A stretch of 64,000 nt of DNA from Desulfonema magnum (GTDB lineage Bacteria; Desulfobacterota; Desulfobacteria; Desulfobacterales; 4be13), in contig NZ_CP061800.1 of NCBI RefSeq assembly GCF_017377395.1, positions 7,425,001 to 7,489,000 on the forward strand, read 5' to 3'. The notes under the pieces were generated by a model, which worked only from the letters and a program-made list of their open reading frames with translations, made no database searches and was not told the DNA's origin. Shown piece by piece: positions 25,222 to 25,764 of this stretch. The translations under genes and the position numbers were made by a program. Within the stretch, counting starts at the first letter, position 1; every line of letters begins with the position of its first letter.

Positions 25222-25764
25222 TTGAAACCTGAAACTGGAAACTGGAAACTGGAAACTGGAAACTGGAAACTGGAAACTGGAAACTGGAAACTGGAAACTC
25301 GGGACTTGAGATTTGAAACTCGAAACTCAAAAGTCGAAAGTCGAAAGTCGAAACTTCAGAACCAAGTTTCAAGTTTCAAGTTTCAAGTTTCCGGTTTCAC
25401 GCTGCTTGAAGTCATGGTGGCTGTTTCCATTATTTCCTTCGTGCTTGTGGCTGTTTATAAAATGCACGCTCAGACGGTTGCAATGACCATTGCTTCAAGA
25501 TTTTACACAACTGCGCCTCTGCTGGCGCAGAGCAAGATCGCAGAATTGGAAATAAAATCTGCGGATGATCTGACAAGTGACTCAGGAGACTTTGGCGATG
25601 ATTTTGCAGGTTACAGTTGGAGTGCATCCGTAGAGGATGTTGAATCTGAATTTCTCGGCAGTGTGGCGGAACGTCTGAAACGAATTGATATAAATGTAAA
25701 CTTTAATGAGGGGGAATTCGTCTATACTTTCAGAACATACAGACTTGCGGACGAAAAAGGATAA
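25222..25764 (+). CDS. gspI: T2SS minor pseudopilin GspI with a repeat-encoded leader
   Basis: Minor pseudopilin of 180 residues. TTG at 25222 is six bases after GAGGAG and is the only supported start. The frame then reads through nine perfect GAAACTG heptamers (25231-25293; ETGNWKL three times), degenerate heptamers, and AAGTTTC-type units reading VSSFKFQVSG. Cleavage is predicted after Gly58, before FTLLEVMVAVSIISF with Glu at +5. Typical GspI leaders are about 6-15 residues, so this one is four or more times longer and made almost entirely of repeat DNA. The mature part is ordinary. Because 7 is not a multiple of 3, loss or gain of one unit shifts the frame. Confidence 0.88.
   Translation: MKPETGNWKLETGNWKLETGNWKLETRDLRFETRNSKVESRKSKLQNQVSSFKFQVSGFTLLEVMVAVSIISFVLVAVYKMHAQTVAMTIASRFYTTAPLLAQSKIAELEIKSADDLTSDSGDFGDDFAGYSWSASVEDVESEFLGSVAERLKRIDINVNFNEGEFVYTFRTYRLADEKG
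25231..25391 (+). repeat. In-frame heptamer array encoding the GspI leader
   Basis: Nine exact GAAACTG units (25231-25293) followed by GAAACTC, degenerate units, AAAGTCG units (25329-25349) and four AAGTTTC units near 25364-25391. The first and last parts are inverse complements, so the transcript can fold into a hairpin right after the start codon. Confidence 0.9.

Follow-up and report, generated by a model that had tools for sequence, protein, structure and literature searches.

Does the 5' repeat array of gspI in Desulfonema magnum switch the gene on and off, or is it DNA that the gene tolerates? The window analysed here is a stretch of 64,000 nucleotides (G000:C1:7425001-7489000) of a genome assembled as a single contig of 8,027,777 bp, and it contains a type II secretion operon at 22.5-32 kb with the order gspF, a gspG relic, gspG, H, I, J, K, L, M and C. 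A sequence-only reading of this DNA had proposed that heptamer repeats form the GspI prepilin leader and make it a contingency locus for the whole secretion system. Our comparison instead supports, as the likely explanation, an in-frame heptamer element resembling the Rickettsia palindromic elements (RPE), tolerated where the peptide that it encodes is either cleaved away or accommodated in a loop, with the reading frame held by selection.

The gspI open reading frame has 180 codons (25222-25764; all features of the window given here lie on the forward strand), with the leader at 25222-25395 and the mature protein starting at Phe 25396. Its product matches the GspI profile TIGR01707 with an E value of 2.4e-8, at 34.4 bits, below the curated cut-off of 44.35, and matches N_methyl (PF07963) above the cut-off. 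The prepilin motif G/FTLLE(V) and the hydrophobic helix are present, and the position between gspH and gspJ within the gsp operon assigns the gene to GspI. The mature protein is intact and 67-69% identical to that of family members, and the rest of the operon is otherwise intact. The relic is a second copy of gspG (23790-24057), in which MKNRGFMLIE and the body lie in different frames and most of the N-terminal helix is missing; at the same site, the relative L308 carries two copies, both with intact prepilin motifs.

The repeats are organized as the sequence-only reading had described, ending at the Gly-Phe codons. In a single register, 26 heptads follow one another without a break (25217-25398) and fill the space between the stop of gspH and the cleavage codons of GspI. 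Heptads 1-12 are GAAACTT, GAAACCT, nine exact copies of GAAACTG (25231-25293, encoding ETGNWKL three times) and GAAACTC; heptads 13-20 are GGGACTT, GAGATTT, two GAAACTC, AAAAGTC, two GAAAGTC and GAAACTT. The final six, CAGAACC, four AAGTTTC (25364-25391) and CGGTTTC (25392-25398), include an inverted arm, the AAGTTTC copies, that pairs with the left arm, and the last heptad holds the Gly(-1) and Phe(+1) codons. TRF reported GAAACTG with 11.9 copies at 25217-25299 (score 145) and a second repeat, CAAGTTT, at 25363-25399. The array is predicted to fold into a strong hairpin (MFE -71.4 kcal/mol, z -5.0), its exact GAAACTG part is free of stop codons in every frame, and the leader array encodes the peptide stretch ETGNWKLETGNWK.

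The gene preceding gspI, which encodes a GspH-like pseudopilin (24673-25218) with an intact C-terminus beside the array, ends in the TGA at 25216-25218, and its final two sense codons constitute a near-consensus ribosome site, GAGGAG (25210-25215), 6 nt upstream of a TTG in the gspI frame (25222-25224). The sequence-only reading had taken this TTG for the only start with a ribosome site and had seen no further in-frame start near the cleavage site. This is corrected by a second in-frame TTG (25306-25308), located 3' of the exact repeats in the degenerate part, which has a weak ribosome site. Also overlooked was an ATG at 25190, which is homologous to the gspI start of relatives. In the family members whose upstream DNA is complete (L010, L012 and L014), the gspI frame extends back to an ATG overlapping gspH at its 3' end (MKNM[SW]DL...), and overlapping gspI starts with short leaders are common throughout the order. 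In D. magnum, this ATG survives within gspH as a relic (25190-25225) that encodes MKNMWDLRSET followed by a stop, out of the gspI frame, and its TGA (25223-25225) overlaps the TTG as TTGA. On the simplest reading, a change in the repeats would have disconnected the old ATG, and the gspH-coupled TTG 25222, most likely the present translation start, would have taken over. Since TTG 25306 is the only start between the exact repeats and the cleavage site, production of GspI requires translation of at least part of the array.

From TTG 25222, computed variants with 0, 3, 6, 9, 12 or 15 copies of GAAACTG yield the full-length protein, and all other copy numbers lead to a stop after 12-40 residues. 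Copy number thus sets the frame and three-unit steps keep it, as had been proposed, with only 9 +/- 3n repeats reaching the mature protein, while TTG 25306 is in frame whatever the copy number. A 5' coding repeat, a unit that is not a multiple of three and a frame set by copy number together constitute the anatomy of a phase-variable locus. The closest model for this anatomy is neuO of E. coli K1, where a variable-number AAGACTC heptamer repeat encodes the poly-psi domain (PMC3046976, PMC13001214). Both have a stop-free heptamer array at the 5' coding end, with three units giving seven residues and the frame depending on copy number modulo 3 (PMC3046976, PMC13001214). However, neuO retains its repeats in the active enzyme, whereas the gspI leader peptide should be cut off.

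We then compared leaders across the order, using one genome per species; loci counted below that are related by descent are not independent. Heptamer-coded gspI leaders occurred in five of five genomes of the family, with the units GAAACTG, CTTCACG, CACGCCT, CAGTTTC and GAAACCG, and we rejected the idea that the array is a peculiarity of one strain; a genus-level search for relatives found no genome of the same genus. Across the order, translated leader arrays were present in 11 of 114 gspI and 16 of 108 gspJ loci, and in none of 79 gspG and 111 gspH loci. Counting arrays at most 60 nt upstream, gspG and gspH together had 1 in 190 and gspI and gspJ together 27 in 222 (Fisher p = 4.6e-7, kinship between loci ignored). 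By tally, these 27 leader arrays are spread over ten families (f1, f7, f11, f21, f23, f30, f32, f41, f62 and f71). The gspJ of the window (25877-26578) has a heptamer-free leader, where many relatives have a heptamer-coded one. No array was detected within mature GspI at any of 117 loci.

All 27 leader arrays are open throughout and have an upstream in-frame start, which in some relatives is putative. This is far from the chance expectation (about 1e-9 if the arrays were independent), because, on any one strand, the unit is stop-free in only about 45% of the genome's heptamer arrays. Eleven starts are recognisably shared between relatives, and a count by hand placed 10 of them in frame (p = 1.3e-4 at an expectation of 1/3), the exception being the D. 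magnum genome itself. The sequence-only reading had pointed to copy-number variants in relatives as a check, and the number indeed differs between species, in three-unit steps: the gspI leaders of the sister species L122 and L127, and the gspJ leaders of L122 and L124, differ by exactly 21 bp, or three units. Leader length is equal despite substitutions for gspI in L122/L124 and in L127/L201, and for gspJ in L180/L181/L169. Such equal lengths and 21-bp steps are what purifying selection on the frame would predict.

We do not favour a single ancestral leader array, as the units are genus-specific and the GspI tree requires about 9 (gspI) and 14 (gspJ) changes in array presence, on a weak tree whose starred branches leave room for one array origin. 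In family f21, AGAGGAC units of an upstream array form the ribosome site, and the ATG lies within a unit-like CAGGATG. In family f11 (L013, L119), the gspI leader is partly a palindromic GTTCCCACGC..GCGTGGGAAC repeat rather than heptamers, in frame from the ancestral ATG. L191 and L195 have nearly identical mature GspI and unalignable upstream DNA, with the break at the Gly codon and a leader of ATGACAA in L191.

To place the array in its genomic context, we surveyed tandem repeats by period in four 400-kb blocks (1.6 Mb) of the genome. These contained 189 arrays of period 7, totalling 10.9 kb, and 56 of the harmonic period 14. The gspI array is therefore not a product of chance, because any other period yielded at most 26 arrays (0-26). 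Most of the heptamer arrays in this sample were intergenic or at gene edges (121), and 24 were internal to simple ORF calls. The gspI array belongs to a composite type, also found in several other places, with a left arm of GAAACT(G/C/T), a spacer and a right arm of three to four AAGTTTC; a shared spacer, which would have marked the composite as a classical MITE, was not seen in eight composite copies. A second prepilin gene (G000:C1:268940-269482, equivalent to L235:8940-9482) likewise has a heptamer leader, with TTCAAGT units running up to K/GFTLIE and a good ATG that overlaps the stop of the preceding lipase-like gene.

Of no less interest than the leader of gspI are copies of the composite inside housekeeping enzymes, where heptamer palindromes (KLETGNWKLETGN ... 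KFQVSSFKFQVS) lie in frame. We identified these in murD (L224:2598-3962, residues 235-274), murG (L224:5142-6218, residues 146-186), lpxB (L230:13603-14787, reverse strand, residues 175-199) and an ABC exporter gene (L254:16988-18889, residues 373-406), and an in-frame palindromic repeat is also present in an FG-GAP/C1 peptidase protein. A further element marks the seam (residues 266-296) of a single ORF that joins LpxI to a GFO/IDH/MocA oxidoreductase (L230:15099-16970, reverse strand), possibly a gene fusion made by the repeat. Other repeat-like inserts occupy the same loops in MurD of L325 and L341 and in LpxB of L360, and more distant relatives have ordinary variable loops at the MurD and LpxB insert sites. 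In Gram-negative bacteria that have been studied well, cells cannot do without murD, murG and lpxB, and by analogy their products are probably essential in D. magnum, so that in-frame elements appear to be tolerated there as peptide filler.

Taken together, these findings suggest how the leader may have arisen. A stop-free heptamer palindrome of the structure [GAAACT(G/C/T)]n, spacer, [AAGTTTC]3-4 is scattered over the genome, and the gspI array would be one of its copies. This copy occupies precisely the interval on which no protein sequence imposes constraint, bounded by the stop of gspH and the prepilin cleavage site. It would have displaced the ancestral leader (an ATG overlapping gspH, MKNM(W/S)DLK..), and GAGGAG would now couple initiation at TTG 25222 to the termination of gspH. 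Prepilin peptidase would then cleave off the 58-residue leader, that is, a repeat peptide of 57 residues plus Gly, and because the repeat peptide would be removed, its sequence should hardly matter, whereas its frame should. Length changes, presumably generated by slippage, would persist if they are multiples of three units, and the array itself would have no regulatory function.

Several other explanations were weighed against this tolerated-element reading. A contingency switch, in which slipped-strand gain or loss of one heptamer turns gspI and type II secretion on and off, as AAGACTC does in neuO, is in our view quite improbable. The dependence of the frame on repeat number, which the sequence-only reading had recognized, stands, as do the nine exact stop-free units, the restriction of full-length product from TTG 25222 to 9 +/- 3n units and the turnover of units and copy number between species. 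The comparison nevertheless disfavours a switch: no OFF allele occurred among the 27 leaders across species, every gspI and gspJ leader array being ON with one genome seen per species, compared with 22 of 64 genomes ON and 42 (66%) OFF for neuO (PMC13001214). Furthermore, aligned species pairs differ by three units rather than one or two, and the same type of element lies in frame in the probably essential MurD, MurG and LpxB, where switching off would be lethal. Recurrence at a disposable segment in ten families, with unrelated units, fits tolerance, and at gspI an OFF state may leak because TTG 25306 keeps its frame however many copies there are.

It is very improbable that the array is an RNA device, a hairpin in the gspH-gspI-gspJ message that determines how much of the minor pseudopilins is made relative to the major ones through ribosome slowing, coupling or a processing site. 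The predicted fold and the restriction of arrays to the tip pseudopilin genes gspI and gspJ, and not gspG and gspH, would suit such a device, but similar palindromes occur inside unrelated enzymes, and the hairpin is not conserved, because several relatives have one arm only, namely GAAACCG in L014, CACGCCT in L011 and CAGTTTC in L012. Hardly credible is an error in our view of the gene itself, with gspI starting after the exact repeats (at TTG 25306 or a non-standard codon) or dying since the loss of its ancestral ATG. In its favour are the out-of-frame position of that ATG, the in-frame position of TTG 25306 and the decay of a gspG copy immediately upstream; against this stand the conservation of mature GspI and of the operon and the near-consensus ribosome site of TTG 25222, compared with a weak one at TTG 25306. 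A more far-reaching possibility, which we regard as unlikely, is that Desulfobacterales possess an unknown, still-active process that introduces stop-free heptamer palindromes into proteins without breaking the frame, with three-unit slippage tuning the leaders and occasional on/off variants. If so, an active process would replace surface loops of enzymes and supply minor pseudopilins with ribosome sites, start codons and whole leaders.

Repeats within a cleaved leader are known from Neisseria opa, whose CTCTT leader repeats are phase-variable experimentally. They share with gspI an out-of-frame unit in a leader that is removed, or in gspI should be, and differ in being pentamers rather than heptamers and in lying in a Sec signal peptide rather than a prepilin leader. 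For the origin of the gspI array, the closest model is provided by the Rickettsia palindromic elements, described in PMC10969869, which cites Ogata et al. (2000, 2002), as in-frame palindromic repeats in unrelated protein-coding genes, housekeeping genes included. The D. magnum elements similarly lie in frame in unrelated genes (MurD, MurG, LpxB, the LpxI fusion, the ABC exporter and the FG-GAP/C1 peptidase protein). Unlike RPE, which form families of about 150 bp with conserved sequence, they are tandem heptamers of variable number with a lineage-specific unit and also fill intergenic DNA; judged against the description of RPE, the absence of a common spacer and the differences in unit between genera set them apart from a true RPE family. 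TAACTGA heptamer repeats of Beggiatoaceae, cyanobacteria and Bacteroidetes are dispersed genome-wide, mostly intergenic, with few in ORFs and often near starts (PMC4679880), and the arrays described here are distributed alike. Yet TAACTGA is a single unit that contains stops when read forward and, in Beggiatoaceae, mostly occurs in 2-6 copies, whereas D. magnum and its relatives have a variety of units, a composite that is palindromic, and coding arrays without stops in both prepilin leaders and enzymes. Our literature search found no paper on heptamers in the group of Desulfonema. The heptamer composite is new, as are its repeated appearance in the cleaved gspI and gspJ leaders and the starts and ribosome sites that it supplies.

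The cleaved prepilin leader represents a class of gene segment in which out-of-frame repeats can accumulate in coding DNA with the product unharmed, in a lineage whose heptamer palindromes enter proteins essential elsewhere. It offers a clean contrast between repeats that switch a gene, as in neuO, and repeats that are only kept in frame, and cautions that repeat anatomy alone is insufficient to call contingency loci. It also indicates that repeat DNA can supply conserved genes with ribosome sites, starts and leaders.

Repeats of other kinds were also present in the window. In the gap between gspJ and gspK (26580-26780), about 120 nt lie between an AGGTGTT array and its inverted counterpart, a CCTAACA array, and the two ends of this segment are inverted repeats of each other (AGGTACTC..AACTCATTAT), resembling a MITE. 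Further downstream, a 73-bp unit is repeated 7.9 times with 98% identity (34406-34980), and a 166-bp unit is present in three copies with palindromes of the GTTCCCA... type (55196-55688).
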